Source: a virus
DNA length: 21,943 bases
IMG/VR virus record: IMGVR_UViG_3300024999_000440
Coordinates: 1 to 21,943 of that record
Reading direction: 5' to 3' (one strand)
The position numbers were made by a program, and so were the translations under genes. Shown in pieces: positions 198-21,734 of this stretch (the first letter of the stretch is position 1; each line of letters opens with the position of its first letter). The notes under the pieces are model-generated. The model was not told the DNA's origin. It saw only the letters and a list, made by a program, of their open reading frames with translations, and did no database searches.

Positions 198-1472
198 TTA
201 TTGTATTAAAGTAAGTGATTCTCTTTGAGTTTGTATTGTTTTTAAATATTCATCTATTTCTTGTTTATTTTTAAACATTGTTCTGTTAGTCATAGCCATT
301 TCTTTTTGTTCGTTACGCCAATGTATGGCCTCCTCTATAGTTTTAAATGTTTTGCAATTGTATTTACCATTAACAGTAATAAAAGCTTTGTAACTACCTT
401 TTGTTTCAGTATACCCCAAACCTGGTTGATTTTGATTATTACCTTTTAGATTTGTAATTTGTAAATTAGAGATTCTATTGTCCGTTCCAATCCCATTCAA
501 ATGATCTATAAAGAAATTCTTATATTTTATGTCTATCAAATCATTTAAATATCTATGTAATAAAACATAACTTTTTATTTTGTTTATAACTACAGAACCA
601 TGAACATATGAATTATTTTTCTTTTTATTTATATGCCAAATTCCTTTTTCTGTTTTGGTCTTATCTTCTATACTAATCTTAAAACTATTACCTTTTTTAT
701 CATATATATTATAATATGTCCCACATTCTGATAATTCATATCTATTATTTGCAATATTTATAGGATTTTTTTGTTGTTTCTCTAATTGATTTTTAACTAA
801 GATTAATACTTCATTTATTCTTTCTTGTGTTATATTTTCTAATAAATGATATTTATCAATATTATGTCTGTATCCATATTCTCGTTGCATAATAAGTAAA
901 TCTATTAATGCTTCATTTCTTTCTTTAGTCATACTATATATTAGTCTATTATTTATATTTACATTACCAAACCATTTTTCTCCATTTCCTCTAAGTCCCA
1001 CTATTCCACTATTATTAGAAGTTTTATTTCTTTCTTTAGTGTTATCTACACAATCTGAAATAGACAAACTACTTTTTCTATTATCCCATCTATTTCCACC
1101 TAAATGATTTACATATATATTTGGATCTTTAACCCCCATTATTATTCTATGTAACCTTTCATGTTTACCATTCCTGATATAGCTATTACTTCCATTACTC
1201 ATACTCCATGTTTTTGATTTTACGTAAGATATCATTTCTTCATCTCCGTCAAACCAGAAATCAATTCCATCCTGCGTAGTTCCTATCCAATATGTACCAT
1301 CGTCAGATAATTTAAATTTATTTTTAGAGCAATTAGTACATTCTGATTTATTTAATATTCCTTTATCCCCTATAGTTCTTATGTCCTTGCATTTTAAGCA
1401 TTTGATTGTATATTTTTTATTATTATTTTTATATCGACCAATATCTAATATTTCAACTTGTCCATTTTTCAT
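198..1472 (-). CDS. HNH homing-type endonuclease with two tandem HNH/AP2-like modules
   Basis: Predicted site-specific DNA nuclease of the free-standing phage HNH type. From the ATG at 1472 the protein is 424 aa. It opens with a CxxC-x16-CxxC zinc ribbon (C25, C28, C45, C48). Two similar modules follow. Module 1 has LSDDGTYW (55-62), LHR (107-109), VNHLGGN (121-127) and an AP2-like DNA-binding stretch at about 156-190. Module 2 has LSECGTYY (247-254), LHR (305-307), IDHLNG (322-327) and a second AP2-like stretch at about 351-388. The order suggests an internal duplication, with module 1 more diverged (HLGG for the usual HxDG). Start: the frame stays open upstream of the ATG, and an AGGGGGT ribosome binding site (1518-1524) sits 6-7 bases before an in-frame ATA at 1509-1511. 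Initiation at AUA would add 13 residues that read like family sequence (YLIGN). No good ribosome binding site serves the ATG. A weak terminator-like hairpin lies upstream. Confidence 0.8.
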   Translation of the reverse strand: MKNGQVEILDIGRYKNNNKKYTIKCLKCKDIRTIGDKGILNKSECTNCSKNKFKLSDDGTYWIGTTQDGIDFWFDGDEEMISYVKSKTWSMSNGSNSYIRNGKHERLHRIIMGVKDPNIYVNHLGGNRWDNRKSSLSISDCVDNTKERNKTSNNSGIVGLRGNGEKWFGNVNINNRLIYSMTKERNEALIDLLIMQREYGYRHNIDKYHLLENITQERINEVLILVKNQLEKQQKNPINIANNRYELSECGTYYNIYDKKGNSFKISIEDKTKTEKGIWHINKKKNNSYVHGSVVINKIKSYVLLHRYLNDLIDIKYKNFFIDHLNGIGTDNRISNLQITNLKGNNQNQPGLGYTETKGSYKAFITVNGKYNCKTFKTIEEAIHWRNEQKEMAMTNRTMFKNKQEIDEYLKTIQTQRESLTLIQ

Positions 1473-1544
1473 ATCAATGATATTTCCGATTAAATAATTA
1501 ATATTTTCTATCTTATTACCCCCTAAATATTTCTTATTAATTTA

Positions 1545-1578
1545 ACAATCTTAAAGAAGGATGCCTTTCAGCACCCTT
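1545..1578 (-). terminator. Probable weak rho-independent terminator after the 117-aa gene
   Basis: On the minus strand an 8-bp stem (AAGGGTGC pairing with GCATCCTT, one G-U pair; arms 1571-1578 and 1557-1564) closes a 6-base loop TGAAAG and is followed by CTTTAAGATTG, a short T-rich tail. It lies just downstream of the gene at 1596-1949 and upstream of the HNH gene, where it would separate the two. The tail is short, so termination may be partial. Confidence 0.45.
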
Positions 1579-1595
1579 GCCCAAAACCATTATTG

Positions 1596-1949: not shown

Positions 1950-1994
1950 TATTAATTATTCCTTCTTCGTTTAATTTATTATTTTTTAATGCTT

Positions 1995-2306: not shown

Positions 2307-2328
2307 TTAATTTGTATTCCCTCCTTTC

Positions 2329-2733: not shown

Positions 2734-2769
2734 TATTTTATTTCCCCTTTGTGTTTATATTTTGTAATT

Positions 2770-3348
2770 TTACAACAGTTCTTTTGCAACATCAGTCCAA
2801 TTCCATAATCTCTTATAGTCATTTGTTTTACTCCATGGATATTCTTTCCCAAAAATATATTTATCTACAGCATTAGACGAATCCAAATTAGTTGTCACAT
2901 CGTCTATAAAAATAGAATCAGGATAATCCATTTGAATAATTTCTTTATTCATTTTCACTCCATCATTATACATGAGAATATAATCCTTAATAAATGGTAA
3001 AGTTTCTTGCAAATATAGCGATTTAAGAGATAGATTCATAGGAGTTCCTATACTAGCTATAATTATCTGATATTTTTCATTTAATTCTCTTACAATTTCA
3101 TATGTATTATCACTTATTAGTTTTAGTAGTTTAAAGAATATAGGAGTTTCAAATATTTCTAATACATTTGATTCAGATTTAAGTAATTTACATTGATTTT
3201 CAAAATTCCAAGTATCTACTAACTCCCAGTTAGCAGGAGTAAAATCTTTATGATATTTGTATAGAATGTTGTAAGATTCGCAGAAACTTCTGGTAGAATT
3301 TACAAGAACATTGTCAAAATCGAGATACAGTCTAGTTTTTATAATCAA
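2770..3348 (-). CDS. HAD-superfamily 5'-nucleotidase, probably acting on deoxynucleoside monophosphates
   Basis: Predicted cytosolic phosphatase of the HAD superfamily. From a TTG at 3348 it is 192 aa. HAD motif I is LDFDNVLVNS, with nucleophile D10 and acid/base D12. Motif II is IIASIGT (S99). A conserved-type Lys lies in NDGVKMNKEI (about 132-136). Motif IV is FIDDVTTN (D149, D150). The pattern resembles 5'(3')-deoxyribonucleotidase-like phage proteins; the substrate is inferred from the nucleotide-metabolism neighbours. I chose the TTG because it overlaps the stop of the kinase gene as TTGA and has a GGAGAG site just upstream. The frame extends further left to an ATG at 3384, but that would overlap the kinase by 40 bases with no ribosome binding site. 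Overlapping ends imply translational coupling. Confidence 0.78.
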   Translation of the reverse strand: MIIKTRLYLDFDNVLVNSTRSFCESYNILYKYHKDFTPANWELVDTWNFENQCKLLKSESNVLEIFETPIFFKLLKLISDNTYEIVRELNEKYQIIIASIGTPMNLSLKSLYLQETLPFIKDYILMYNDGVKMNKEIIQMDYPDSIFIDDVTTNLDSSNAVDKYIFGKEYPWSKTNDYKRLWNWTDVAKELL

Positions 3349-3917
3349 CACTCTCCAATCTTTTCTAAAATATATTTCACACATTCATTAAAATCATAAT
3401 TACTAACCATATAATCTACTTCTTGATTAACTATCTCAAATGTAAATTGCTCTTCATCATCTAATTTACGCCTATTCCATTCTGTTTCATCAAATCCATC
3501 TCTACCAATTGCTCTTTGTTTTCTAGTTGGTTCATCTACATCAATGAAAAATGATATGATGTTGTCTTTGAAATGTTTCTTGAGTTCGATTAATCCTAAA
3601 ATATCTAAAACAACTACATAACTATGTTTTGATAAATTAATGCTGTCGCAATGTAAGCCGTAATACCAAACATCTGGCACATTATTCACAAGTGTATTAT
3701 ATTTTCTACATTCAATAAATTCTTCTTGTGCAATCATATCTTCAAATTGTTGTTTAGTAATAAAATGATATGGATTATTTTCTGATTCTGATGGTCGCAC
3801 GGGGCGTGATGTATGAGATATTACCATTTTGTAGTTATAATTATCTGATATGTATTTTGTAATTGTATCTTTTCCTGCTCCACTAAATGAACAAATTACC
3901 ACAATGTTATTTTTCAT
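3345..3917 (-). CDS. gmk: Guanylate kinase-like nucleoside monophosphate kinase
   Basis: Predicted P-loop kinase transferring phosphate from ATP to a (d)NMP, probably (d)GMP, in the cytosol. From the ATG at 3917 it is 190 aa, close to the usual guanylate kinase length. The P-loop is FSGAGKDT (11-18). The NMP-binding part shows HTSRPVRPSESENNPYHF, matching the guanylate kinase pattern TSRxxRxxExxxxxYxF, then EFIEC and YYGL. A lid-like region with several Arg residues (TRKQRAIGRDGFDETEWNRR) follows. Start: the ATG at 3917 has GGAG 7 bases upstream; an ATG at 3947 lies inside the preceding gene without such a site. It overlaps the ThyX-like gene upstream by 11 bases and the nucleotidase downstream by 4, so the three are likely translated together. 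It stops at TGA, which helps show that TGA is a stop in this genome. Confidence 0.8.
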   Translation of the reverse strand: MKNNIVVICSFSGAGKDTITKYISDNYNYKMVISHTSRPVRPSESENNPYHFITKQQFEDMIAQEEFIECRKYNTLVNNVPDVWYYGLHCDSINLSKHSYVVVLDILGLIELKKHFKDNIISFFIDVDEPTRKQRAIGRDGFDETEWNRRKLDDEEQFTFEIVNQEVDYMVSNYDFNECVKYILEKIGEC

Positions 3918-4515
3918 TTGGATACTCCATTCTATAATAAAAGTCACTATTATAAATTTTATATCTTGACTCTATACTTGTTAATTGATCTTCACTACAT
4001 CTATTTTTAAATTTAGTCCAAAATCCACATTCTGAAAATTCAGGGCATCCACAGCGATATATACAATTAGGAACAAATGTATCAGACATTTCAGGTTCAG
4101 TATATTTTGTTACAATCTTTAAATCTTCTGCCAATTCTCTAGTTTCTTTACTGGCCTGATAACATAGTCTCTTTCTCATTGTGTCAATTAAGTTCTGAGC
4201 GTTTGCAACACCTTCAAAGGTAACTAATGTCCCTTGAGGTTCTTTATCCCTATCTATACCTGTTCTGTCGCTTCTCTGAGTAGATATGAAGCATTCCCAC
4301 TTATGTCTAGAAAAATGAACTGAGATCCATGATTTAATATTTTTCCAAATCCAATTAACTTTGATTAATCTTATAGGACTATGCTCAGATATTAATAATT
4401 TAGTTTTAAATTCGCTATTTGGCATTGTATCTGTTGCATCTTTATTAACTGTTGTACGACATTTGTTTTTTGCATCTACCCAGTCATTTTCAAACTTATT
4501 AATTTGTGTTTTCAT
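3907..4515 (-). CDS. ThyX-like (flavin-dependent thymidylate synthase family) protein
   Basis: Probably related to ThyX, which methylates dUMP to dTMP using FAD and folate. It has 202 aa, with the ATG at 4515 behind GAGAGGAAG. Seen in the protein: SEHSPIRLIKVNW (43-55), which matches the EHSPxR segment of ThyX; then FSRHKWECFISTQRSDR (68-84) where ThyX has its RHRxxS-NE-S-RY signature, here with RHK and a two-residue longer spacing; then RKRLCYQASKETRE (114-127), like the C-terminal substrate-binding Arg region. After the ThyX-like part comes a Cys cluster (CIYRCGCPEFSEC, 151-163). The altered signature leaves activity uncertain. The position next to a nucleotide kinase and a nucleotidase supports a role in dNMP supply. 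Its 3' end overlaps the kinase start by 11 bases. Confidence 0.6.
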   Translation of the reverse strand: MKTQINKFENDWVDAKNKCRTTVNKDATDTMPNSEFKTKLLISEHSPIRLIKVNWIWKNIKSWISVHFSRHKWECFISTQRSDRTGIDRDKEPQGTLVTFEGVANAQNLIDTMRKRLCYQASKETRELAEDLKIVTKYTEPEMSDTFVPNCIYRCGCPEFSECGFWTKFKNRCSEDQLTSIESRYKIYNSDFYYRMEYPNEK

Positions 4516-4533
4516 ATAATCTTCCTCTCTTAT

Positions 4534-5019: not shown

Positions 5020-5064
5020 ATTTCTCACATCCTTTCATTGACTCTGTACTACATCCATATAATT

Positions 5065-5093: not shown

Positions 5094-5109
5094 TATAATT
5101 TTATTTCTT

Positions 5110-5146: not shown

Positions 5147-5163
5147 TATCACCTTATCTGAAC

Positions 5164-5404: not shown

Positions 5405-5584
5405 TTATTTATCAATTATAGAAAAATCAATAATATCATCAGCATTTACATCATCAGGAAATGAGCAATATTTATTATTATCCTCTGACATATTGCCAAT
5501 AAGTTCTTTTTCTTCTTGATCTAAAATTAATAGAATAGGAACTTGAGTAGAATCATAGATTGTATCACCTATTTTTACGAGCAT
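5405..5584 (-). CDS. Acidic hypothetical protein, 59 aa
   Basis: A short gene: ATG at 5584 with AAGGAG 9 bases upstream, TAA at 5405-5407. The protein begins MLVKIGDTIYDSTQVPILLIL and has a very acidic second half (SFPDDVNADDIIDFSIIDK), so it is strongly negatively charged. The ribosome binding site, length and amino-acid composition support coding. Function is unknown; small acidic phage proteins sometimes act as inhibitors or DNA mimics, but nothing here shows that. It ends 28 bases before the next gene's start. Confidence 0.72.
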   Translation of the reverse strand: MLVKIGDTIYDSTQVPILLILDQEEKELIGNMSEDNNKYCSFPDDVNADDIIDFSIIDK

Positions 5585-5612
5585 ATATACTCACTCCTTA
5601 ATTGTATTATTC

Positions 5613-5717: not shown

Positions 5718-7262
5718 CTAATTTTCGTTTAATTTTAATATATATACATTGTAATACATCCATCTTAATGGTTTATTTGTTTCTGGGTGTGTTCCGGTCG
5801 AAAGGATTTTATTTTTACAACATTTAGATAGAGAACTATTATCAATTTTGTAATATCTACTAGCATCAGTTAGAGAATTGAAAACTTCTCCTGTTGTTAA
5901 ACAAATTACCTTTTTAGATATTTTTTCATACTTAGTTTTTAAATTATCAGCTTTTTGTTGTTCAAAATTATAATCACACCAACTTAATTCTGCTCCTTGT
6001 TTTAAATACTTTTTTATTGTTGTTTTATTTAATTTAAACAACTTTGCCAATCGTGAGATTGTTTTAATCCCTCCTTTCCACATGTCGCATACTGTTTTTA
6101 CTAGGTTAATGCTCCCTGCTTCATGGCATTTCAACCAATCTATATCTGATTCTTTAAATCCTAATAATATAGGTAATCTAGACTTCATAATACTATTTTT
6201 AATCCATTCCAATTCACTTTTTCTACAATCTAAAATTATGTAATTCTTAATTTTATTCAATCTAGCCAACCATTCTTTATCAAAATCATTATCCTGTGTT
6301 TCTTCTAATGTTGCCCAATTATTATTTGAGTCCTCATAATGTTGAATTCCGTGGGTTTCAATTATGCAATTGATACCTTTAATATAATTATCATATCTAT
6401 AATTATTACACCACTTGATCGTCCTTTTCGACAATTGCGGTATAAAATTAACTTTAAGTTGTTCTAAAAAGTTAAACAAAAACTTCTCAGAATAAGGTAC
6501 TCCGTCACTGCATTTTGGACAAGAAAAGCCATGATTTGTTAACTTATTAATTGCAATTTCTTTCTCATACCCACAGTCTGGACATCTCATAGGTAACTCT
6601 TTAATTGAACCATATGAATATTTATCAGCATCATCTATATTTACTAAATATTTTACTGATTCTGGATGAGTGAGTTTTATTGTGTTACATTTATTACAGT
6701 TAAGACTTTGTTTCCCACCTGTAAAATTATTAATACTTTTCAATTCCGATCCATGTTCGGGATGATATAAACATTTAAACCAGTAACCTATTTTGTTTAT
6801 CCCGTTAGAACTATAACTTACATCTTTAGGACTTAATTTATTTCCATTCTTATCAACATTTAATTCATAATCCCAACGAGATAATAATCTATCTGCATCA
6901 AATTTAGATAAATTTAAGTAACACCATTCAAAGAAGCTAATCCATTTTTCGTATCCGTTCTTTGCACATTTAGTACAATAGTATTTTTCTTCTTCTCTTA
7001 ATGATTTTTTATAATTTTGCCAAATTACCCCTGTTAATAATTTTCCGCATCCATCACATTCCACATCTACGGTTATATGAGACCCATCTGGCAAATCTTC
7101 TGCTTTTATTATAATTTTAGTATTTCTTTTAAGATGCTTTATTCCTTTTATGTCAATTGATTTTGGTATTGTATATCCTTTATTTTCATACCATTTCACT
7201 GTTGTTGTATTTATGTTCATTTCAATTTTCTTTGTTAGTAGCACTAGGTTATCATCCTCCAT
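5718..7262 (-). CDS. Vsr/EDxHD-like homing endonuclease with zinc ribbons and NUMOD1-type tail
   Basis: Predicted mobile DNA nuclease, 514 aa from the ATG at 7262. In order: zinc-ribbon-like pairs CDGC (69-72) with CTKC (96-99), an NCNKC (188-192), and CPDC (227-230) with CPKC (248-251). Then comes a Vsr-like catalytic core, PYSEKFLFNFLEQL (256-269, E259), RYDNYI (289-294, D291) and IIETHGIQHYE (300-310, H304), which fits the E-D-x-H-D arrangement of the EDxHD family. Then IILDCRKSELEWI (342-354), a helix-turn-helix-like ISRLAKLFKLNKTTIKKYL (402-420), and a NUMOD1-like DNA-binding tail (452-485, CLTTGEVFNSLTDASRYY). Start is uncertain: GGAGGAT lies just inside the frame and would better serve a GTG at 7244; an ATG at 7220 is also possible. 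The repeats at 5613-5677 follow it. Target unknown. Confidence 0.75.
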   Translation of the reverse strand: MEDDNLVLLTKKIEMNINTTTVKWYENKGYTIPKSIDIKGIKHLKRNTKIIIKAEDLPDGSHITVDVECDGCGKLLTGVIWQNYKKSLREEEKYYCTKCAKNGYEKWISFFEWCYLNLSKFDADRLLSRWDYELNVDKNGNKLSPKDVSYSSNGINKIGYWFKCLYHPEHGSELKSINNFTGGKQSLNCNKCNTIKLTHPESVKYLVNIDDADKYSYGSIKELPMRCPDCGYEKEIAINKLTNHGFSCPKCSDGVPYSEKFLFNFLEQLKVNFIPQLSKRTIKWCNNYRYDNYIKGINCIIETHGIQHYEDSNNNWATLEETQDNDFDKEWLARLNKIKNYIILDCRKSELEWIKNSIMKSRLPILLGFKESDIDWLKCHEAGSINLVKTVCDMWKGGIKTISRLAKLFKLNKTTIKKYLKQGAELSWCDYNFEQQKADNLKTKYEKISKKVICLTTGEVFNSLTDASRYYKIDNSSLSKCCKNKILSTGTHPETNKPLRWMYYNVYILKLNEN

Positions 7263-8879: not shown

Positions 8880-9067
8880 CTATTTACTTACTTTCTTAAC
8901 ATCGTCAAAATTAACAAAACAAGTACAATCGTTAAAATCAGGATTATCATCTAATCTACTTCATTTAACATAATAAAATCACCATCTTTGAGAGCATCGT
9001 GAGTCCATTTGTCTTTGTAGTTTGGTTCAATGGAAATATTATCGAGAGAATATTTATTTTTTAACAT
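8880..9067 (-). pseudogene. Small gene broken by an apparent one-base deletion
   Basis: An ATG at 9067 with a good AAGAAGGA site 8 bases upstream opens a frame that stops after 38 codons at TAG 8951-8953. The -1 frame from about 8960 continues directly as RLDDNPDFNDCTCFVNFDD and ends at TAG 8880-8882, just before the next gene's ribosome binding site. The two parts read as one protein (FIMLNEV then RLDDNPDF) of about 62 aa if one base is restored near 8955-8960. No slippery heptamer is visible there, so programmed frameshifting is unlikely. It may be a real mutation or a sequencing or assembly error. Function unknown. Confidence 0.6.
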
Positions 9068-9786: not shown

Positions 9787-9844
9787 AAAGTAATCATCTC
9801 AATTTATTATTTGCAATTTGTTTGTAGTCCTTTCTGTGAAGGTA

Positions 9845-10295: not shown

Positions 10296-13200
10296 CTAAT
10301 TACAACGTTGATATGTGCATTTAGTGCATTGTACGCACCCATCATATTTTGTTAAAGTATATTCACCACATTCAGGACATTTAAATTTTTCATCTTTATT
10401 AGATTCTATTTGTAATGGTTTTACAGTTTTAATAATTATATCTTTACTAGGTTTTAATTCTCCATTCAAGAATTTAATCATTTGTTTAGCAATTCCATCC
10501 CCACAACTCTTACCAACCTCTTTATCTTTTTTATGTGCTGCTACGCTTACATCGCATTTAACACTTTGTAATTGTTCGATGATTACATAAGGATCAACAT
10601 TAGCTTTTAACATCGTAGAGATCATTCTAGTGAGTGCTATGGTCATTCCCTGACATCCACCACTGGAACCACTTTGAGAGAATACTTCACACAATTTTCC
10701 TTCGTCATTGTATATTAAAAATAACCACATTGAACCACAGCCAGTTTTTACTTTTAATCTTACTGAATTAGCAATATCTAAAGTCTCATTAATTGGAACA
10801 TATTTATTAACCTCAATTGGTGATTCTGCACTCAATACTTGATTTTCCCTTGAATTTTGGACATAGACTGTAGTACCTTTACATCCTAGTTCCCATGCCA
10901 TCATAAATGCTTTATAAACATCTTCGACAGTAGAATTTTGAGACATATTAATTGTCTTTGATAAAGCGTTTGTAGTTACTTGCTGTAATTCTGCTTGCAT
11001 TTTAATATGATCTTCCCATGATATTTCAAGAGAAGTTTTAAATAGTTTTTGCCATTTTTCAGGTACACCCTTGATTCCTTGACAACTTCCACTATTATCA
11101 AGTATTTCTTTAATTATATTATCATTTAACCAACCCTCAGAATTTCCAATATCCCTAAACAAAGAATTTACCATTATGTATTCTTTTTCTCTCATTAAAC
11201 GTCTAAACACAATAGCAAAATAAGTTTCAACCCCTGAACTTGCACATTCTTCATCTAGAAGTAATTGTGTAGCACCTGTCGGTTGACCAGAAGTAACTGA
11301 TAAATTTCTAATTCTAATTCCCTGTTCTTCAAATGTGCTACCATACCAACCTTCAGGTAATTCTCTACCTTCTTCAATTAATTTACAGCTATAGGCCTGT
11401 GCTGTATCAGTAATTCTTTTTAATATTGATTTAGCAAATATTCTACCTTCTTTTGAATCATATGCTAATCCTTTTAATGTCAACATAGGATTTAATCCCA
11501 TTACTCCAATGCCTAATTTGCGTGTTAATAATACAGCTTTTTCAATTAATTCATCTGGTAAATTATTAATATCAATACTATTATCTAAAAATCTTACTAT
11601 TGTTTCTGTAACATAATCTAATTTATCGAAATCAACATTCCCATTTTTATCAATATATCTTTGTAGATTATGTGCAGATAAATTACATGCTTCATTATCA
11701 TACAAGGGAATTTCTCCACACTGTCCTGTAACAATTCCATTAAAACATCCTTTGTGTTTTAGAGGTTCATTGAAACAATATACAGATTCTTCAATATTTG
11801 ATTGATTGACAATCTCAGTTACATAGATAAATTTACTAGCATCTCTATTAGGATTTGCAATTAATTCAACTCTATTAGTATGTAATTGCAATTGCATTAA
11901 TTTATACACATTACTTGTATTTATAAGTAATCTAAAACAATCCTGACACTGATATTCTTTTGTATCATTTTCTCCAAATGGCATTTCTTTTTTTGTTGCT
12001 TTTTTATTTAAAGATAGTGTTGCATTACAACCTAATGTATTAAGCATCATTTTAATATCACTGAGAAAGTTTCTATCAATAGAACTTATTGCAATGGAAC
12101 CATCTTTTGAATTTAATGTGCCATCTGTATCAATGATCCCTGCTAACCAATGTAGTCTATTTTCTATGGAATAGTTTTGATCTGGCACAAATTCTTTAGA
12201 GTATGGTTTGTAATCATTGGAAAGTCTAACATGAATTCTATCACTTTTTTCTTCATCTCTTGAATTAAGACAATCAATATATTGCAATAAACCTTTTTTA
12301 ACATCATATAAACTAATACATTGCCAATTCTTTTCCGTATTGTAGAATCCATCCCCTGCATATACACCCAAAGTATACATAAATTTATTTTCTAATTGCA
12401 TTTCTCCTTCAATAATTGGGAAATTATATTTATCCAACTTATCATTAATCTCCAAATCTTTTGCATCTTTAATTAGAACTTTATTTGTGTAACACTCTCT
12501 ACCTAAATTACTTTTTACGTGAAATTTATGATAAGGAGTACATTTTAATTCAGAACCATCACTAAATTTTACTAATAATATTTTTTGATTAGTATTTGTA
12601 ATTGTAGGAGTTACTTCAGAAAATTCTGTACCATTCCATATGTTTACTTTTTTATCTAATACAGAATCAATTCTAGAATATCCTTTATCAGTTAAAACTA
12701 AGGTATCTCCAGTTACACACGCATTACATGAGTCAATTTCACCAAGATTTTTAACACAAGGATTATCTTTATTAATGGTAGAACCGAAGAGAATTCCTGG
12801 TTCCGAATGATATCTAGCATTAGTAACAATTTTATTAAATAATTCTCTAGCATTAATTGTTTTTGTTACATATCCAAGTGGACTTTTTAATTCAATGTCT
12901 TTATTATCCTTTACTGCTTGCATAAAATTATCATCTACAAGAACTGAAATATTAAAGTTTTTAATTTCATTGTGGTCTGATTTTACTGTAATAAACGATT
13001 CAATATCTGAATGATAAATATCCATTACAATAATACCTGCACCTCTACGTCTTGCTTGCATAACTACGTCTAATGTTGTATTAAAAACCTTCATAAAGGA
13101 AATTGGGCCTGTACTTTTACCTTTTGTTGAAACTATTTTAGCATCTTTTTCACGTAATTTTGAAATATTTAAACCAATACCACCACCCATTTTAGTGATA

Positions 13201-13502
13201 ATTGCTGATCTTTCATTTGTATAAAAAATTGAATGTAAATCATCTTTTAAACCACCAACAACAAAACATGATGATAGCATATTATTTACACCAGCATTCA
13301 TTAGGAATGGAGTTGCTGGCATCCAATATCCCTCTACAATTGTATTATAGAATCTATTTGTCCAATATTGTATTAATTCTTCTGTTTTTTCTACACTAGC
13401 AATTTTTTTCGATACTCTCATAAACATTTGTTCTGGATTTTCATTTTCTAGTAGATAATCTGATTCTAATATGTAATTTGCAACCTCATTAAATTTGTAC
13501 AT
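10296..13502 (-). CDS. nrdJ: Class II (B12-dependent) ribonucleotide reductase containing an intein
   Basis: Reduces ribonucleotides to deoxyribonucleotides using adenosylcobalamin; cytosolic. The precursor is 1068 aa, about 735 after removal of a 333-residue intein (C262-Q594). Seen in the host protein: first redox Cys in LSSCFVVGG (C79), KMGGGIGLN, the radical-site triad NxCxE formed by N260, C595 and E597 only after splicing, second redox Cys in EACNLSAHNL (C606), SGQPTGATQ and SSGVETYF, GCKGTTVYVQNSRENQVL, a TSCPD domain (about 913-1012) and a C-terminal Cys-rich tail (KCPECGEY to QRCN). These fit class II (NrdJ) rather than class I or III. The ATG at 13502 has GGAG about 7 bases upstream. 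It is followed by the MazG-like gene and preceded by an endonuclease VII-like gene. Confidence 0.92.
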   Translation of the reverse strand: MYKFNEVANYILESDYLLENENPEQMFMRVSKKIASVEKTEELIQYWTNRFYNTIVEGYWMPATPFLMNAGVNNMLSSCFVVGGLKDDLHSIFYTNERSAIITKMGGGIGLNISKLREKDAKIVSTKGKSTGPISFMKVFNTTLDVVMQARRRGAGIIVMDIYHSDIESFITVKSDHNEIKNFNISVLVDDNFMQAVKDNKDIELKSPLGYVTKTINARELFNKIVTNARYHSEPGILFGSTINKDNPCVKNLGEIDSCNACVTGDTLVLTDKGYSRIDSVLDKKVNIWNGTEFSEVTPTITNTNQKILLVKFSDGSELKCTPYHKFHVKSNLGRECYTNKVLIKDAKDLEINDKLDKYNFPIIEGEMQLENKFMYTLGVYAGDGFYNTEKNWQCISLYDVKKGLLQYIDCLNSRDEEKSDRIHVRLSNDYKPYSKEFVPDQNYSIENRLHWLAGIIDTDGTLNSKDGSIAISSIDRNFLSDIKMMLNTLGCNATLSLNKKATKKEMPFGENDTKEYQCQDCFRLLINTSNVYKLMQLQLHTNRVELIANPNRDASKFIYVTEIVNQSNIEESVYCFNEPLKHKGCFNGIVTGQCGEIPLYDNEACNLSAHNLQRYIDKNGNVDFDKLDYVTETIVRFLDNSIDINNLPDELIEKAVLLTRKLGIGVMGLNPMLTLKGLAYDSKEGRIFAKSILKRITDTAQAYSCKLIEEGRELPEGWYGSTFEEQGIRIRNLSVTSGQPTGATQLLLDEECASSGVETYFAIVFRRLMREKEYIMVNSLFRDIGNSEGWLNDNIIKEILDNSGSCQGIKGVPEKWQKLFKTSLEISWEDHIKMQAELQQVTTNALSKTINMSQNSTVEDVYKAFMMAWELGCKGTTVYVQNSRENQVLSAESPIEVNKYVPINETLDIANSVRLKVKTGCGSMWLFLIYNDEGKLCEVFSQSGSSGGCQGMTIALTRMISTMLKANVDPYVIIEQLQSVKCDVSVAAHKKDKEVGKSCGDGIAKQMIKFLNGELKPSKDIIIKTVKPLQIESNKDEKFKCPECGEYTLTKYDGCVQCTKCTYQRCN
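11721..12719 (-). mobile_element. LAGLIDADG intein inserted at the radical cysteine of the reductase
   Basis: Residues 262-594 of the reductase precursor. Block A is CVTGDTLVLTDKGY at the N-terminus with nucleophile Cys. Block B is LKCTPYHKFHV with the Thr-x-x-His pattern. Two LAGLIDADG motifs, TLGVYAGDGF (about 377-386) and WLAGIIDTDG (452-461), indicate a potentially active homing endonuclease. The C-terminal block reads VYCF then NGIVTGQ, followed by Cys as the +1 residue. The last residue is Gln instead of the usual Asn and the residue before it is Gly instead of His, a known but atypical class of C-termini. The insertion point lies between A261 and the catalytic Cys. Confidence 0.9.
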
Positions 13503-13551: not shown

Positions 13552-14013
13552 CTATTTCATAAATCTTTTTAAAAATATATCGGGTGTAGCTATCCCTAAA
13601 ATATAATCCGATGCTCTTAACAATAAAGTTGGATCATCTTTAAAAAATCCTAAACCCTTATTACAATTTGCACATAACATTCCTCTAATTCTTCCACTTT
13701 GATGTGAATGGTCTATCCCTAAATTATCTATACTTCCACATATAACACATACTTTATTCAATGAATCATATTCTTCTTTTGAAATACCATAATTAGATTT
13801 GGCTTTTATAAATGCAACTTTATCTTTGTTTTTACCTACCCATGTTTTTTGACTTTCTTTTGCCTTTTCTTTATTGTTTTGATAATATGATTTACTTTGA
13901 TTTTTAGAACATTCTTTACACCATGATGTAGGTTCCCCTTTATTTTTACCTTTCTTCTCAATGTAAAATTCAGATTCTTCTTTAAATGTTTCGCATTTGG
14001 GACATTTTTTCAT
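13552..14013 (-). CDS. Endonuclease VII-like nuclease (His-Me finger)
   Basis: Predicted DNA nuclease of the recombination endonuclease VII family, 153 aa. An N-terminal zinc-ribbon-like part, CPKC (4-7) with WCKEC (31-35), is followed by a basic linker. The catalytic His-Me domain shows CVICGS (89-94), LGIDHSHQSGRIRGMLC (98-114; D101, H102, H104) and CANCNKGLGFF (114-124; C114, C117, N118), closely following the family pattern. In T4 this family resolves branched DNA; free-standing phage copies can also act as homing nucleases, and this one sits directly before the intein-bearing reductase gene. The ATG at 14013 overlaps the TGA of the previous gene (ATGA) and has GGAG just upstream, so translation is coupled. 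Confidence 0.82.
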   Translation of the reverse strand: MKKCPKCETFKEESEFYIEKKGKNKGEPTSWCKECSKNQSKSYYQNNKEKAKESQKTWVGKNKDKVAFIKAKSNYGISKEEYDSLNKVCVICGSIDNLGIDHSHQSGRIRGMLCANCNKGLGFFKDDPTLLLRASDYILGIATPDIFLKRFMK

Positions 14014-15415: not shown

Positions 15416-17671
15416 TTAACGAAGTAGTAATTCTTTAAGATGTGTCTTTCTATTGAAATCTGCTTTTTTCTTAATAGCCCTATTTACTGTTTCTATTTCT
15501 CCAAAGTGAAATACCTTTTGTTTTGCTCTCGTTTGCGATACATAAATCAGATTACTATTGAGCATAAAGGTATGAGCTTTAGGGGTAATCATAATAACCT
15601 TTTCACATTGACCGCCTTGGCTCTTTAATATCGAAATACTATATGAAAGCTTAATATTAATCAAATCACTTTTATTATAAATAACAACTTCATCAAATTG
15701 AATAATTAATTTACCATTCTTGATTTTTACTATTTTGCCTATTTCCCCATTTGCCACAAAAGTTTTATCATCTTCATCTATAAAATCATCATTATATCTT
15801 ATTGCTTTATAATTATTCACAGATTGAATGACAAGATCATTCTCATAAAATTTCGTTTCACCAAGTTGAACGTAAATATTTCCTGATAATACGTTAGGAT
15901 TTGCTATAGGTTGTAGATGTTTATTTATAGCAACAGTTCCGTAATCACCTACATTATAAGATGATAAAATCATTATATCTTCTTTGGAAGTTCCAGATGA
16001 TAATAGTTTTTTGTATAGGGCAACCACATTTTTCATTATATTTTCTTGTAACATAGGTATAAACATATATCCTTTGTCATCACCAAATATTTGTGGATTT
16101 TGAGAATTTGCTAAGAATTTTTCGCTATTTCTAGTTTTCGTTGCGACAGTTAATACTCCTCCTTCTCCATATCTGAAAATTTGAGTAAGAGAAACTATTG
16201 GAATTAGATTTGAATTAATTAGATCATAAAAAACATTACCTGCACCAACAGAAGGCACTTGGGCACTGTCGCCTATCATCAATAATTTAGTTTTAGAGAA
16301 ATCAATTGCCTCTAATAAATGCTTCATTAAAAATACATCACACATAGAAAATTCATCCACACAGACGATAGAATATGACAATTTAGATTCTTCATTATAT
16401 CCCCATACTGGAGGTTTATATAATAACCCTCTGTGGATTGTAGATGCAGGTTCTTTTGCATATTCACCAAGGATCTTGGCCGCACGACCAGTTGGAGCAA
16501 ACAAACAAAATGATTTATTATTATCGTTCAACATATCAATCAAAGATTTAGTTGTAGCGCTCTTTCCACTTCCACTAAAACCATTGAGAATGCACACATT
16601 AGAATTACACACCATAGGTAAAACTTTATGTTGTTGCTCTGTGAGAGTAATATCTCCATTATTCTTATATTTTTCAGTATCAATATTCCATTTATTATCC
16701 ACATTCAAACCTTCTAGAATTCTCTTAGCAATATATTCTTCTGTTTGATATGTTTCCTCTAATGCCACAGTTTTATTTACTTTATCAAAATGAATATCTT
16801 TATCACTTTTAACAATATCAACAAAATGCTCAATACATTTATTTGCTAATGATTCAGATTGTTTCCTTAACTCCTTAACTTCCATTTTAGTATTCCCATC
16901 ATTCTCATTTTCTTCTAATAAAAACATAATTGCTGATTTTTGTCTTTGACTAGAAGTTTGTAAATCAAAAGTAAAATCAATTGGTGGTTTTTCTCCTTTT
17001 GCTTTTGTTGCAATGCAATCTTTATTAAATTCAAGGAGTATTTTATCTGCTTTCTTGAATGAAATCCTTGATAATCCGCATAAACACATGTACGGATTGT
17101 CTTGTAATTTTTCTTTAATCTTATCAACTGAACCATATTTATCATATAATGCTTTTAATATTTTGAATTCAATAAATCCTTTAAATTCTGTAACTAACTC
17201 TCCTAATACAAAATTCTCAATAATTTTCCTTTTGATTACGTCAAATCTAACTTCGCCAATATTGTATAATTTCTTTAGATCAATATCATCTAAACGATTA
17301 TTGATAACTCTATCAATAATGTCTGGATATTCCCTCATCACTTCATCAACCTGACTATTACTATCTAATATGCTTTGTAAAAACAATCTAGTTGATGTCT
17401 CTGTTTTAGGCATATCCCTTCCTATATTAATTACTTTATACGATATTCCATTTTTTCCTTCCTTTTCTTCTGCTTTTATAGAGTATTCTATACCTGTTTC
17501 AAGATCAGGTAAATTTCCTAGAATGCTGACATTGCCATATGTGTTTTTTGTTATATGTGGATATTTGGTATCATCAACTTCTAGAGCGTATATTTTATAA
17601 TCATCTGTATTGTAGGGGTTTGCGACTACGACTCCCTTGAATTCATAAATTATTTTATTTTTACTTGCCAA
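15416..17671 (-). CDS. RecD2-like ATP-dependent DNA helicase
   Basis: Predicted superfamily 1B 5'-3' DNA helicase, 751 aa, likely part of phage replication or recombination. N-terminal OB-like region (about 5-85), then helix-hairpin-helix-like LYNIGEVRFDVI (135-146) and DNPYMCLCGLSRISFKKADK (191-210), as in RecD2. Motor: Walker A GFSGSGKS (364-371), FAPTGRAAKILGE (391-403), Walker B CVDEFSMCD (437-445), motif III LLMIGDSAQVPSVGAGNV (463-480), QIFR (497-500), and motif VI region SYSISILKSQGGQ then VSQTRAK near the C-terminus. Start: TTG at 17671, 7 bases after GAGGTG; no ATG is better placed. The polymerase stop codon abuts this TTG, and the ribosome binding site lies within the polymerase coding end, so translation is coupled. 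No partner RecB or RecC is visible. Confidence 0.88.
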   Translation of the reverse strand: MASKNKIIYEFKGVVVANPYNTDDYKIYALEVDDTKYPHITKNTYGNVSILGNLPDLETGIEYSIKAEEKEGKNGISYKVINIGRDMPKTETSTRLFLQSILDSNSQVDEVMREYPDIIDRVINNRLDDIDLKKLYNIGEVRFDVIKRKIIENFVLGELVTEFKGFIEFKILKALYDKYGSVDKIKEKLQDNPYMCLCGLSRISFKKADKILLEFNKDCIATKAKGEKPPIDFTFDLQTSSQRQKSAIMFLLEENENDGNTKMEVKELRKQSESLANKCIEHFVDIVKSDKDIHFDKVNKTVALEETYQTEEYIAKRILEGLNVDNKWNIDTEKYKNNGDITLTEQQHKVLPMVCNSNVCILNGFSGSGKSATTKSLIDMLNDNNKSFCLFAPTGRAAKILGEYAKEPASTIHRGLLYKPPVWGYNEESKLSYSIVCVDEFSMCDVFLMKHLLEAIDFSKTKLLMIGDSAQVPSVGAGNVFYDLINSNLIPIVSLTQIFRYGEGGVLTVATKTRNSEKFLANSQNPQIFGDDKGYMFIPMLQENIMKNVVALYKKLLSSGTSKEDIMILSSYNVGDYGTVAINKHLQPIANPNVLSGNIYVQLGETKFYENDLVIQSVNNYKAIRYNDDFIDEDDKTFVANGEIGKIVKIKNGKLIIQFDEVVIYNKSDLINIKLSYSISILKSQGGQCEKVIMITPKAHTFMLNSNLIYVSQTRAKQKVFHFGEIETVNRAIKKKADFNRKTHLKELLLR

Positions 17672-20600
17672 TTAATACACCTCATAATCAAATAATATAT
17701 CTTCTATTTCATTTGTTTTTTGCCATTTTCCACCTATATTTTTTGTTTTAAACTGCTGATTGAATTCATTTACCTTTAGTACACTAAATAATTCGAATGG
17801 ATTTTCTACATATATTTGTGGGTCTTTCACTTTTGTTTTAACTTCATCACCAGTCTGTATTTGTCTTAACGTAACGTATGGTTTTCTTTTATCATTATAA
17901 GTAGTATAATCAACAACAATATAATATTTGCTTCCAACATTTTCATTTACATATACAACATATTCTAAATAGTCTTTTTCAAATTTAACTTGTTCCTTAA
18001 CTGATAGAGGTTTATCTTCAATATTATTTGTACACTCTGTAACTAAACCAACTATATCCAATTCTTTGTATAACGCTGTCGTTTCCTTATTACTATACTT
18101 TTTTAGTAATTCTTCAGTCAAACCCATTTCTTGTATTTTTGACTTATTGATTTGTTTCACTCCATTTAACTTTTCAAATATATCTAGATATTGCAATAGT
18201 TTTTTATTTTTGCCGAATTTTTTAAAGAATCCCAAACCAGTTAATATTTTTAGTTGTCTCAAATTCGCAGATGTTTTTGTAAAGATATCTGTTAACAACT
18301 GAGCAAATGTATTATATTTATTATCTCTTAATTCATACAGTTCGGTTGCTATTTTAAAACTACAATATTTAATACTTTCTATGCCTTTATAAATAGTATT
18401 CGTTTCTTTATTAAAAGTGTATTCTCCAATAGATTTTCCAAACTCGATTGATTTAATCTTAATACCTTTTTCTTTTGCTAGTTCAGTACCCATTTGTATA
18501 TCTTCTTTATTTGCAACGTTATTTAAATATGCTGTAGTAAATTCAAGTGGGTAATATGTTCTAAGTCTAGTACACGCATATCCATTCATCGAATATCCAG
18601 TGGAATGATTATATCCAAATTGATATTCCGAGCTGTCATCGATAATTTGGAGAAATTGTTTTGCTTCTTCTTCTGCTATTTCTCTTGGTTTTGAAGACTT
18701 ACCGCAATACCCTTCTAATATTTTAGGTAATTGTTCGTTCAATAAATCTGTGTCTTTTTTACCAATTGCTCTCCTAGTAGTATCTGCAAGAGATCCATTA
18801 AATCCACAAATATCTGTTAAAAACTTAATTGTATCTTCTTGATATACTAAAAATCCATTATTTTGATTTAGAAGTTTATTAATTTCTTCGGAAGGATTTT
18901 CATTGATTTCCCTTGCTATCAATTTATCTCTATAACTTTTACCAGAAGGTCTCAGACATGCGTTAACTAAAGACATATCATTTATTCTTTTCGGTTTAAA
19001 CTCCTTTAATAAAGAAAAAGAAAAATCACTTTCGAACTGAAATACACCAATTTTTGACATAATCATATCATTCCATACATTTTTATCGTCCCAGTCAATC
19101 TCATGAGATTTTAAATAATGAGAATTAATATATTTATATGTATCTTTCATTATACCAACTGTTTTTAAACCCAATATATCAAACTTAACATAATTAAGAG
19201 AATCAACTGCTTTCATTGCACATGTAGAGACTGGAAAACTTTCATCTCCACCACTATAAAATACACCTAAATTGTCTTGCAATGTGATTGGAGAACCTAT
19301 CATTCCGCTAGGATGATGTCCTTTTGAAATAATTGTACCCTTAATACCATCAAAGTAATAAAATAAATCTTTATTACTTTCTTTTAAATCTTGAAAATTT
19401 TGATACAACTTTTTGGCTTTAATATTAGCTTTTTGACTTCTAATTTGGTTAGCATATATTTCGTGATTGTCAAAGTCAACTGATGATTTTTCTAGATCAA
19501 GTTCTTCTAAATTTACTTCAGATTGTATTATGTCGTTGTATTCCTTGAATATCTTTTCATATTTATCCTTAATACTAGCAACTGCATCTAAATCCTTGTA
19601 ATCCAATCCTTTAGCTAATACATCAATAGTACCTCTATCTTGAAGCGTACCAAATTGTGCTATATAAGATGTCTTAGAAGATCCAAACTTTTTAATAATA
19701 AATTCATAAACCTTCGCTCTGTCTTTTGGTGCAAAATCTATATCTATATCTGCTAAACTTACCCTATCAGCATTACAAAATCTTGAAAAAACTGTTTCCC
19801 ATTTTACAGGGTCAACATCAATAATATCTAATATATATGCAATAGTGCTTCCTCCAACAGAACCCCTGCAAAAACCATAAGGTATATCATTCAAATTGCA
19901 ATAATCAACTAATTCAGACATAAACAATAAAAAACTTTCCATTCCTTGATTTTTAAATGCTAAAAATTCTTCTTGTATATTTAGTTTATATTTAGGATTT
20001 TTATTATCTATCACTTTTTTATTTATTTTATCTTGATATTTTCGCATTATTTCGTCTTTAAATAAATTAGAAACATTGTCTCCATAGAGATTTGGATATT
20101 TGAATGTTTTGTCAAGTTTAAAATCCTCTATTAAGTCTGAAAATTTATTTGTATTTTCTATAGCTTCTAAATATACTTCTTCTGGTAGTACATTCTGAAC
20201 TCTAAATTTGCTAATTAATTCGTCTAATGTTTTCCATGTTAAATCAAATTCTTCCTCAAAACTATTATCTGTCTCGTTTGTATCTGTATTTTCATCTTCT
20301 TCAATTTTTGCTTTTTTCTTTTTTGAGTAATCACTATTTTTTGATTTCTGTAAAATCTTTCTACATGCGGCTTTGTATTCAGTAGATGAATGGGTGTCTG
20401 TTCCTGCTATTAACGGGATATTATATTCTTTACTTAATTCCCATAATAGAGCATTGTATTCCTTTTGATCATTGCAGTCATGATACTGTATTTCTAAAAA
20501 GCATCTATCGTTATTTTTAGCTAACCAATCTAAATATATTTTAAAATAACCATCAGTATCTTTTCTCTTTTTCCATAACATTGATGCTAGACATGCAGTT

Positions 20601-21031
20601 GTTACTATAATATTTGAACTTGTATTCATTAATTCTTCCAGTGAAATTCTAGGATTATAATAAAAATGTCTATCTGTTTTATCTTCGTTCTTACCTTTCG
20701 AAGTTGCTAAAGACATCAATAAATTTAACTCTCTCACACCGTCAATATTTTTAGCGTATAACCCTATATGATAACCTCTTTCGTCTACTTCTAGTTTTGT
20801 ACATAAATACAGTTCTACACCATGAATATATTTTATTTTTGCCTTATCACAATCTTGTTTCTTTTTTACCCAATCAGCTATATTACCATGCTCGGAAAAC
20901 GCAATAGCTTTCATATCATGCTTTTTAGCAAGTTTAATATACTCTTTATAACTAGTGCAAGAATCAGAATAGCCATTTGTATTAGAATAATCAGTATGGC
21001 AATGATAAATTATAAATTTATTGTTATTCAT
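17672..21031 (-). CDS. dnaE: DNA polymerase III alpha subunit, DnaE type, with PHP domain
   Basis: Phage-encoded replicative C-family polymerase, 1119 aa. N-terminal PHP domain: IIYHCHTDYS (H10, H12, D14), FSEHGN (E47, H48), HGVELYL (E73), GTDTHS (D212, H214), so the metal ligands look kept and a PHP exonuclease is possible. A Lys/Glu-rich insert follows (about 235-265). Palm: GFCRGSVGGSTIAYILDI (386-403), SLADIDIDFAP (425-435, catalytic Asp pair) and YVKFDILGLKT (614-624, third Asp). Later GFLVYQEDTIKFLTDICGF and GYNHSTGYSMNGYA match the family; the C-terminus looks like an OB fold. Start: GGAGGT ends directly before an ATG at 21037 but is 7 bases before the ATG at 21031, which I chose. It overlaps the GIY-YIG stop by 8 bases and is followed directly by the helicase. 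Confidence 0.92.
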   Translation of the reverse strand: MNNNKFIIYHCHTDYSNTNGYSDSCTSYKEYIKLAKKHDMKAIAFSEHGNIADWVKKKQDCDKAKIKYIHGVELYLCTKLEVDERGYHIGLYAKNIDGVRELNLLMSLATSKGKNEDKTDRHFYYNPRISLEELMNTSSNIIVTTACLASMLWKKRKDTDGYFKIYLDWLAKNNDRCFLEIQYHDCNDQKEYNALLWELSKEYNIPLIAGTDTHSSTEYKAACRKILQKSKNSDYSKKKKAKIEEDENTDTNETDNSFEEEFDLTWKTLDELISKFRVQNVLPEEVYLEAIENTNKFSDLIEDFKLDKTFKYPNLYGDNVSNLFKDEIMRKYQDKINKKVIDNKNPKYKLNIQEEFLAFKNQGMESFLLFMSELVDYCNLNDIPYGFCRGSVGGSTIAYILDIIDVDPVKWETVFSRFCNADRVSLADIDIDFAPKDRAKVYEFIIKKFGSSKTSYIAQFGTLQDRGTIDVLAKGLDYKDLDAVASIKDKYEKIFKEYNDIIQSEVNLEELDLEKSSVDFDNHEIYANQIRSQKANIKAKKLYQNFQDLKESNKDLFYYFDGIKGTIISKGHHPSGMIGSPITLQDNLGVFYSGGDESFPVSTCAMKAVDSLNYVKFDILGLKTVGIMKDTYKYINSHYLKSHEIDWDDKNVWNDMIMSKIGVFQFESDFSFSLLKEFKPKRINDMSLVNACLRPSGKSYRDKLIAREINENPSEEINKLLNQNNGFLVYQEDTIKFLTDICGFNGSLADTTRRAIGKKDTDLLNEQLPKILEGYCGKSSKPREIAEEEAKQFLQIIDDSSEYQFGYNHSTGYSMNGYACTRLRTYYPLEFTTAYLNNVANKEDIQMGTELAKEKGIKIKSIEFGKSIGEYTFNKETNTIYKGIESIKYCSFKIATELYELRDNKYNTFAQLLTDIFTKTSANLRQLKILTGLGFFKKFGKNKKLLQYLDIFEKLNGVKQINKSKIQEMGLTEELLKKYSNKETTALYKELDIVGLVTECTNNIEDKPLSVKEQVKFEKDYLEYVVYVNENVGSKYYIVVDYTTYNDKRKPYVTLRQIQTGDEVKTKVKDPQIYVENPFELFSVLKVNEFNQQFKTKNIGGKWQKTNEIEDILFDYEVY

Positions 21032-21734
21032 TTGCATACCTCCAAATATATCCGTGTGACGTTTTTACTTTTCTTTTACAGCATTTTGCGATTCCACTAT
21101 TATCATATCCCAATAATTCTTTAACTTCCATACATCCCCAATAAGAACGTATAAAATTTCCCTCTAAATCGTATTGATTTATCTCTCTTGATCTAGGATT
21201 ATTTTTGCCTTTAACGCTAGGTCTATCTCCTTTCATACTTTCTATTTCTTTATCGGTATGCTTTCTTTTGTAAACAGGACTTTTTTCTTTAACAAACCTG
21301 CCATTAAGAGTTTCTTTAATCTTTTTTATTGTTTCTTCTGAATGACGCTTACCATAAAAAGGATTATTTTCGCCAGAAATATCTGCATGATTTTCCTTTA
21401 TTTTTTGTATTGTTTCTTGAGAGTGTTTTGAAATTAAACCACCACTTCTAAGATTATATCCATAACTTGGATTTGTGCTATTGTGTTTTTTAATTAATTC
21501 TCCCTCAATTACACAAGCCTGTTCTGCAGATAGGTTTTCTATTAAAACAATATGTAAAAAACTATCCCATCCATATTTCTTAATAGCGTTCCAAAAATGA
21601 TTATTTTTATTATTATCATAAGGGTTATAACCATTCCCATTTTGCCATCTCATCTCTGTACTTTGTTGTGTTTGACCTATATATAACTTGTTATTTATTT
21701 TATTTACATGTGCATAAATTTTATAATTATTCAT
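21024..21734 (-). CDS. GIY-YIG homing endonuclease with NUMOD3 and NUMOD1-type DNA-binding motifs
   Basis: Predicted homing nuclease, 236 aa. GIY-YIG domain: KIYAHVNKINNKLYIGQT (5-22) with the GIY part replaced by KIY and YIG intact at 18-20, conserved-type Arg in EMRWQ, catalytic-type Glu in VIEGELIKKHN, and GYNLRSGG. Then NUMOD3-like repeats (GENNPFYGKRHSEETIKKIKE and related segments) and a C-terminal NUMOD1-like motif (INQYDLEGNFIRSYWG, SGIAKCCKRK, YIWRYANE). Start: the ATG at 21734 has AGGAGGT about 9 bases upstream; a TTG at 21773 in frame lies inside the previous gene. The gene is wedged between the upstream acidic-tail gene (14-base gap) and dnaE, and the dnaE ribosome binding site is inside its last codons, as if inserted into a replication operon. 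Confidence 0.88.
   Translation of the reverse strand: MNNYKIYAHVNKINNKLYIGQTQQSTEMRWQNGNGYNPYDNNKNNHFWNAIKKYGWDSFLHIVLIENLSAEQACVIEGELIKKHNSTNPSYGYNLRSGGLISKHSQETIQKIKENHADISGENNPFYGKRHSEETIKKIKETLNGRFVKEKSPVYKRKHTDKEIESMKGDRPSVKGKNNPRSREINQYDLEGNFIRSYWGCMEVKELLGYDNSGIAKCCKRKVKTSHGYIWRYANE

Follow-up and report, generated by a model that had tools for sequence, protein, structure and literature searches.

Why does one short stretch of phage DNA hold nucleases of five different families? We addressed this question in IMG/VR record IMGVR_UViG_3300024999_000440, which was analysed over its whole length of 21,943 bases (the window) and which, judging from its content, is a genome fragment. The original prediction had placed an HNH, an EDxHD/Vsr-type, an Endo VII-type and a GIY-YIG nuclease in this window, together with a LAGLIDADG enzyme inside an intein, and all five open reading frames (ORFs) were confirmed at those positions, all on the minus strand. 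We consider it very probable that the window comes from a large uncultured phage, a relative of Clostridioides phage LIBA6276, and that the replication and deoxynucleotide (dNTP) genes of this phage were invaded independently by five unrelated homing elements, namely four free-standing homing endonuclease genes (HEGs) and the LAGLIDADG enzyme of an intein in ribonucleotide reductase (RNR). The elements, with the host gene of the intein, are as follows:

198 to 1472, minus strand: A, free-standing HNH nuclease with two HNH-like segments (two phrog_99 matches, E 5.6e-24)
5718 to 7262, minus strand: B, free-standing EDxHD (Vsr-like) nuclease with a Cys-rich N-terminal part, a helix-turn-helix-like region (residues 385-430) and an I-HmuI-like C-terminus (phrog_4538, DUF4379, fold)
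10296 to 13502, minus strand: RNR large subunit with intein (Ribonuc_red_lgC, TSCPD)
11721 to 12719, minus strand: C, LAGLIDADG intein inserted before the Cys of CGEIPL (RNR residues 262-594)
13552 to 14013, minus strand: D, free-standing Endo VII-motif nuclease (DHHRN/F-CphI type), its start overlapping the stop of the upstream gene (PF02945, Endonuclease_7, 60 bits)
21024 to 21734, minus strand: E, free-standing GIY-YIG nuclease between a presumably Cas4-like gene and dnaE (TIGR01453, NUMOD3, NUMOD1)

As had been proposed, three of the five lie in or beside replication or dNTP genes: E abuts dnaE, C lies inside the RNR gene and D adjoins it. An Rfam scan of the window gave no match of any kind, either at the gathering score or at E up to 5, so genes A, B, D and E look free-standing; a group I or group II intron around the nucleases was ruled out on the same result.

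Gene E combines a GIY-YIG domain with the NUMOD DNA-binding motif. It scored 84.4 bits with the group I intron endonuclease model TIGR01453 (cut-off 56.05), NUMOD3 (43.9 bits) and NUMOD1 (26.7 bits) were both above their cut-offs, and the GIY-YIG model gave 21.0 bits against a cut-off of 22.6 and, with neighbours, 22.7, above it. Among the relatives, L003/L004 (counted once, their alignments being identical) and L006 have an empty site, with only 15 or 14 bases separating the end of the Cas4-like gene from the dnaE start; in the window, 14 bases separate the Cas4-like stop from the start of the GIY-YIG gene. Since the genes on either side of gene E are direct neighbours in relatives, gene E appears to be free-standing, and this adjacency, with the blank Rfam scan, argues that it is not intron-encoded. 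The last codons of gene E hold GGAGGT, six bases before the second dnaE ATG (21031), and its stop overlaps the dnaE start region, so a ribosome site for dnaE was preserved despite the insertion. In T4, endonuclease genes likewise hold signals for downstream genes, and start/stop overlaps occur (PMC2988022).

GIY-YIG relatives were then sought in viral contigs, and 80 of 186 were kept, of which L071 and, cursorily, L079 and L087 were compared with the window. L071, on a different contig, carries a GIY-YIG gene at the same site (91% amino acid identity); L002 has the gene too but is 100% identical to the window. Between the window and L071, the synonymous divergence (dS) was 0.42 for the GIY-YIG gene (bootstrap 0.28-0.62), 1.21 (from 0.66) over the initial 95 codons of dnaE and 1.01 (from 0.52) over a 59-codon stretch of the Cas4-like tail. 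These values indicate that the GIY-YIG copies split later than the adjacent dnaE, and probably also later than the Cas4-like tail.

An empty allele was also found for gene D. In L006, only 70 bases separate the same left gene from RNR, of which 97 N-terminal residues are 98% identical; this empty allele is consistent with homing. The original prediction had counted four homing families plus a resolvase type, and the four homing families stood, whereas the resolvase gave way to a better reading of D as a fifth homing type. Gene D shows CVIC at 89 (C89/C92), DHSH at 101 (D101, H102 and H104), R110, CANC at 114 (C114/C117) and N118, that is, the DHHRN arrangement (CX2-4C, D-H-x-H, R, CX2C-N), and the motif lies at the C-terminal end (residues 71-138 of 153). 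A PDB search gave Hpy99I as the best match (E 1.9e-8), with T4 Endo VII at 0.19 over query residues 80-125 only; neither the whole-length Endo VII similarity nor the N-terminal motif of a T4-type Holliday resolvase was found in gene D. According to PMC6083498, F-CphI and restriction enzymes such as Hpy99I belong to an endonuclease clade with a mostly C-terminal motif, and resolvases form another clade with a mostly N-terminal motif. From its domain order and its catalytic residues of the F-CphI type, gene D looks more like a DHHRN (F-CphI-type) homing endonuclease than a resolvase; the role of a phage resolvase was considered and thought less likely. A search of viral contigs for Endo VII-type relatives gave 20 loci, the best of which, short pieces aside, showed 45% identity over 85 residues.

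These data bear on an explanation in which the nucleases are resident phage genes, serving as Holliday resolvase, in host DNA breakdown or in restriction of rivals, that were inherited and in places lost. The ratio of nonsynonymous to synonymous divergence (dN/dS) was about 0.1 to 0.3 for the GIY-YIG, HNH, EDxHD and intein proteins, so these proteins are or were kept under selection, an observation that counts for homing elements as well as for resident genes. The Endo VII motif also belongs to phage resolvases, and neither the window nor 14 related records yielded the RuvC-annotated protein that LIBA6276 encodes next to its guanylate kinase gene (gmk), which leaves room for a resolvase role of D. 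However, of 16 records only the window gave a PF02945 match, although many of the other records are fragments; D is much more similar to Hpy99I than to T4 Endo VII and carries its motif C-terminally; and different families alternate at site A, as described below. We regard resident genes as a very unlikely explanation of the five nucleases.

Element C has the features of an intein: splicing blocks and an endonuclease lie in frame within the host protein (LAGLIDADG_3, 40.8 bits, and N-terminus TIGR01445, both above cut-off), and alleles without the insert exist. It begins with Cys, a Cys follows the insert, and its C-terminal end is Gly-Gln without a His before the Gln; inteins usually end in His-Asn. 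Protein splicing is predicted. L005 carries an allele at the same site (63% amino acid identity; exteins 93% and 87%), with a dS from the window of 1.14 for the intein and of 0.36 and 0.78 for the exteins. G006 has an intein at the same insertion point (25% identical), and RNR is intein-free in G016, which has a similar RNR, and in LIBA6276. Inteins of this type are frequent in phages: the window intein matched 330 phage records, with at least 80% of it covered in 322 of them and a best identity of 43%; among the matches listed, 7 of 15 places were annotated as ribonucleotide reductase. A PDB search with the intein gave no match at E 0.01. Searching viral contigs with an RNR alignment gave nine loci, two of them the L005 and L006 contigs and the other seven 29% identical. 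Two further observations concern such inserts. In L005 (1-12512), consecutive genes for a DnaE-like polymerase, a RecD-like helicase and RNR each have a LAGLIDADG match in an intein-like insert, those of the polymerase and helicase being called intein-like by eye only. In L007 (7720-8592), an ORF other than the RNR match contains a stretch whose two ends share 77-83% DNA identity with those of the window RNR intein.

The protein of gene B matched phrog_4538 (E 1.5e-55) and phrog_9084, annotated 'homing endonuclease' (1.1e-18). PDB sequence searches with the protein or with an eight-row alignment returned no homing nuclease, and a match came only from fold comparison. We used an AlphaFold model (mean pLDDT 73.6, pTM 0.34), with which Foldseek ranked Vsr second (probability 0.99, E 0.033). 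With VIA-align, residues 256-368 matched I-Bth0305I (3r3p, Z 8.4, 96/97 residues) and Vsr (1cw0, Z 7.9; 1vsr, Z 7.1), and residues 433-509 matched the DNA-binding end of I-HmuI (1u3e, Z 7.2); two mitoribosomal chains slightly outscored 3r3p (Z 8.9 and 8.6). As candidate catalytic residues, D291, E302 and H308 are invariant and E259 is present in 7/8 homologues. On fold evidence alone, we have moderate confidence that the catalytic domain is of the I-Bth0305I/Vsr type, and the agreement of this fold with the phrog_9084 annotation points to a homing enzyme.

At site B, among the loci that have both neighbour genes, L008 and L012 show no EDxHD gene between the two (the hits in L009, L010 and L013 were identical to those of L008). 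Both carry EDxHD homologues elsewhere (51% and 54% identical), so these genes occupy other places in relatives. Similarity to L008 and L012 ends precisely at the stop codon of the left neighbour. On the right, window positions 5450-5590 hold a shortened copy of a gene of about 70 amino acids that is found across P5164 in L011 and L016; this remnant shows a rearranged neighbourhood, and site B is thus not a clean two-flank site. Among the 16 records searched, the window counted, 14 had at least one phrog_4538 match, with up to ten rows in G006; some of these rows are C-terminal repeats only.

Gene A sits past the last gene of the operon and faces a convergent gene. Its surroundings include two further features:

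1 to 186, plus strand: 3' end of the convergent gene, which flanks site A on its other side and, by a weak match, may encode a replication initiator
1553 to 1578, minus strand: terminator-like hairpin between P1596 and the HNH gene

An HNH domain of the HNH_3 type was recognised in gene A from phrog_99 and, marginally, from Pfam HNH_3, which gave 22.0 bits against a cut-off of 24.8 and, with neighbours in the genome search, 25.1, above the cut-off. The true start of the gene probably lies upstream of 1472; beyond this position the frame stays open for another 23 codons, none of them ATG, GTG or TTG. The end of the convergent gene is 90-93% identical at the nucleotide level to L008 and L016 over 193-195 bases, and its L008 homologue matched a DnaA model at E 2.4e-5 with 23.6 bits, far under the cut-off of 343.9.

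L061 carries an HNH homologue at the same site (85% amino acid identity) with an in-frame TGA where the window reads TGG, a stop that fits the decay expected for homing genes. In L019, site A holds an EDxHD gene, and in L012 it holds an EDxHD gene behind a different left gene. The hairpin was found in the window, L061, L012 and L019 only (26 sequences scanned with a broader pattern; a narrower pattern had matched L012 only); its copies are nearly identical, and a nuclease gene adjoins each of them, HNH in the first two and EDxHD in the last two. In L008, L011, L014 and L016, neither a nuclease was recognised nor such a hairpin found at site A, the small convergent genes of L011 and L014 having been left out of the family-library scans. 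This alternation of HNH and EDxHD enzymes lends support to the suggestion that the elements compete with each other. Between the window and L061, dS was 0.43 (0.33-0.58) for the HNH gene and 0.79 (0.48-1.22) for P1596, and similarity steps up across the site, from 57% amino acid identity in P1596 to 85% in HNH, with 89% nucleotide identity in the tail of the convergent gene. A more far-reaching and, in our view, unlikely idea is that the gap between operon end and convergent gene is an exchangeable slot, in which the hairpin would arrive with the nuclease and insulate the operon, HNH and EDxHD genes would be swappable, and the five families would jointly guard and spread the replication/dNTP block among co-resident phages. 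Two ORFs resembling the window HNH protein were also seen in L071 (237-1016 and 2101-2829), together with the GIY-YIG gene, in 5 kb by dnaE.

From the nuclease families and their pattern of presence and absence, we infer homing with separate arrival of the elements. In a co-infecting relative without the nuclease, each enzyme would cut a conserved sequence close to where its own gene inserts, repair of the break from the carrier genome would copy the nuclease gene and some flanking DNA across, and occupied genomes would be immune, their target being interrupted by the insertion. The original prediction had called for empty sites in related genomes, and clean two-flank sites were obtained for the GIY-YIG gene (L003/L004 and L006) and the Endo VII-type gene (L006) but not for the HNH and EDxHD genes, whose surroundings are rearranged, nor among close RNRs. 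It would have been overturned by relatives that all share the same nucleases at the same places, and none of the five is fixed in them.

Several points weigh against independent homing invasions. For sites A and B, no relative is nuclease-free with both flanks unchanged, and at site A this holds for L008, L011, L014 and L016 alike. The intein-free RNRs are distant (27-38% identical), and in the comparison with L005 the intein is more diverged than its exteins, which speaks against a recent arrival there and for an older or faster part. L005 also lacks the Endo VII-type gene, yet it has a different left gene. As for timing, the dS intervals of the GIY-YIG gene and the Cas4-like tail overlap, as do those of HNH and P1596, and the dnaE and Cas4-like stretches compared with L071 are short. 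Finally, in 14 control genomes the family models matched widely, with GIY-YIG in 13, HNH (PF01844) in 10, phrog_4538 in 8, LAGLIDADG_3 in 5, phrog_99 in 4, HNH_3 in 3 and Endonuclease_7 in 2, so that some of the GIY-YIG and phrog_4538 matches in relatives may not be homing enzymes.

The number of nucleases could also reflect a chance cluster, with the window at the upper end of a lineage rich in homing genes. In seven family searches covering 1181 kb in 15 related records, we found 80 nuclease frames, a mean of 1.49 per 21.9 kb. Overlapping windows were taken every 500 bases along the 12 of these records with sufficient length; of 1765 such windows, 15 had five nucleases, all of them in G006 and G009. 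L071, with two HNH-like ORFs and a GIY-YIG gene in 5 kb, and L005, where each of three successive genes within 12.5 kb contains a LAGLIDADG match, are similarly rich. On the other side, none of the 1765 windows held more than three families, as against five nucleases of five families in the window itself, a comparison that favours the window because the searched families were picked from it. The counts include some matches below cut-off, rows sharing a frame were merged, and rows with C-terminal repeats only were merged or dropped; relatives may be undercounted, since an HNH-looking ORF (L003 8132-8824, seen by eye and unconfirmed by Pfam) was excluded. A first count (67 frames, at most 4 per window) was superseded after two more HNH models were added, and the Poisson value of 0.009 obtained with it rests on that lower count of relatives. 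The claim that the stretch is dense even for phages holds best for family diversity; by number, the window is high among the related records but is equalled in G006 and G009. A chance cluster is a real possibility, if somewhat short of an even one. By comparison, the 15 homing genes of T4 account for 11% of the coding potential of that phage (PMC2988022), and the 142,778 bases of phage CB7 contain 23 (PMC7344957).

Essential genes ringed by several HEG classes, with class swaps at one site, raise the further alternative of a multi-family 'HEG-island', in which homing genes bracket the replication and dNTP genes and together move them as cargo. Islands with changing HEG classes at one place have been reported (PMC10448857), and in the window the nucleases sit in and beside dnaE and RNR. 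The dnaE gene is mosaic in comparison with L006 (3257-6349), being 24-40% identical up to residue 900 and 56-100% beyond, unlike the comparison with L003, which gives 62-91% along the entire length; with the step against L061 at site A, this would suit cargo transfer. The mosaic dnaE shows that relatives recombine within the replication block. However, the dnaE step falls some 2.7 kb into the gene and coincides with no nuclease, a long and nearly identical island shared by otherwise unlike phages was not found, and the sole aligned piece above 90% against L006 comprises about 320 bases, the RNR 5' end and the sequence upstream. Joint movement as cargo is rather unlikely.

The nucleases might instead be retained through harm to competing phages, that is, by interference competition. 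They sit at replication and dNTP genes common to relatives, and several distinct relatives (L004, L006, L012, L015, L016, L018, L020 and L021) come from the single metagenome 3300024999, so that encounters are possible. Phage competition via such an enzyme has been demonstrated for gp210 of PhiPA3 acting on PhiKZ (PMC11620839). Yet selfish spread alone would yield the same pattern, and while interference is plausible here, we think it unlikely to be what keeps the nucleases in place; phage competition through the window nucleases is only possible.

The homing elements are set in a block whose main genes all lie on the minus strand, in the order Cas4-like gene end, GIY-YIG, dnaE, recD2, small genes, Endo VII-type, RNR with intein, PRA-PH/MazG-like gene, dCMP deaminase, small genes, EDxHD, small genes, weakly ThyX-like gene, guanylate kinase, deoxynucleotidase-like gene, small genes and HNH. 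We take the first of these to be Cas4-like from its sequence, with no family hit behind the label. The replication and dNTP genes not listed above are:

3345 to 3947, minus strand: guanylate kinase-like, member of the dNTP block, used as anchor in the search for relatives
9340 to 9786, minus strand: dCMP deaminase, member of the dNTP block
15416 to 17671, minus strand: RecD2-like helicase
17672 to 21037, minus strand: DNA polymerase III alpha (DnaE type), adjoining gene E

The ThyX-like match (3907-4515), adjoining guanylate kinase, is weak (E 0.0014, below cut-off). In the dCMP deaminase frame, a TGA (9799-9801) stands at a Trp position conserved in L008 and L014, and translation probably starts at the ATG at 9786. 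Owing to this TGA and to that in the L061 HNH gene, recoding of TGA to Trp was considered; it was ruled out for the window, as the 79 Trp codons across the 24 listed genes are TGG, and TGA as the stop of 2 of 23 window genes also counts against it. Positions 8883-9067 hold a gene remnant with both ends kept and the middle gone, corresponding to 127 amino acids in L014 and L019. In L008, two IS605-type TnpB-like genes (628-1533 and 5728-6327) lie within the corresponding block.

A megablast of the window against phage records gave no match, and so no near relative among named phages. The closest DnaE among phage records was that of LIBA6276 (55% identity). The circular LIBA6276 record of 134 kb includes terminase and tail genes, and its dnaE, RNR and gmk are ordered as in the window. 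The LIBA6276 terminase has relatives in G001, G002, G006 and G010, that is, in 5 of the 16 records searched when LIBA6276 itself is counted, so the group of the window is phage-like. Some relatives also encode FtsK- or HerA-type ATPases and actin-like proteins, and these proteins, with a weakly DnaA-like domain in a convergent gene, were seen at L008 12901-13872, L014 15612-17024, L019 19279-20784 and L008 15751-16719; adjoining phage-type genes, they look as if they belonged to phage-plasmids. A host search with a guanylate kinase profile in GTDB genomes gave 53 loci, none of them a close host, the best-scoring being 26-33% identical over long stretches, with a maximum of 40% over 67 residues.

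We read the window as a further example of replication/dNTP genes colonised by homing endonucleases, a kind known from T4 and the HEG-islands and here of unusually high diversity. In PMC10448857 (Barth 2023), which treats HEG-islands and nuclease genes at the borders of exchanged DNA, homing genes lie near polymerase, RNR and terminase genes, several classes occur together and classes are swapped at the same place; like the window, those islands have homing genes of different classes by replication and RNR genes, and LAGLIDADG inteins in RNR, while the window adds EDxHD and Endo VII-motif enzymes, has shown no highly identical island and seems to belong to a different phage group. The free-standing T4 enzymes are alike in lying between genes near replication and nrd genes, in start/stop overlaps such as that of mobE and in relatives with other nucleases or none (PMC2988022); unlike the window, where no intron was found, the T4 enzymes tabulated in that paper are all of the GIY-YIG or HNH type and include three that lie in introns. 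Gene B shares its predicted catalytic fold with I-Bth0305I of the EDxHD family (PMC3943268) but is free-standing, has a Cys-rich part in front, and its sequence match to the PDB entry is too weak for listing. Gene D shares with F-CphI the C-terminal Endo VII motif and the named catalytic and zinc residues; F-CphI adjoins an intron-containing psbA gene, and gene D an intein-containing RNR gene (PMC6083498). LAGLIDADG inteins are also found in other phage RNRs, such as that of Staphylococcus phage vB_SauM-V1SA22 (43% identity), from which the window intein differs in its phage and in its terminal Gln without preceding His.

These results place phrog_4538, a PHROG listed with unknown function, among I-Bth0305I-type homing enzymes, and add an F-CphI-like member that adjoins RNR. 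The locus amounts to a natural experiment, with one gene block in related phages, several of them sharing a metagenome, each nuclease present or absent and families alternating at one site. It lets us study what determines the winner among homing enzymes at a site, and whether several of them cooperate in moving replication genes.

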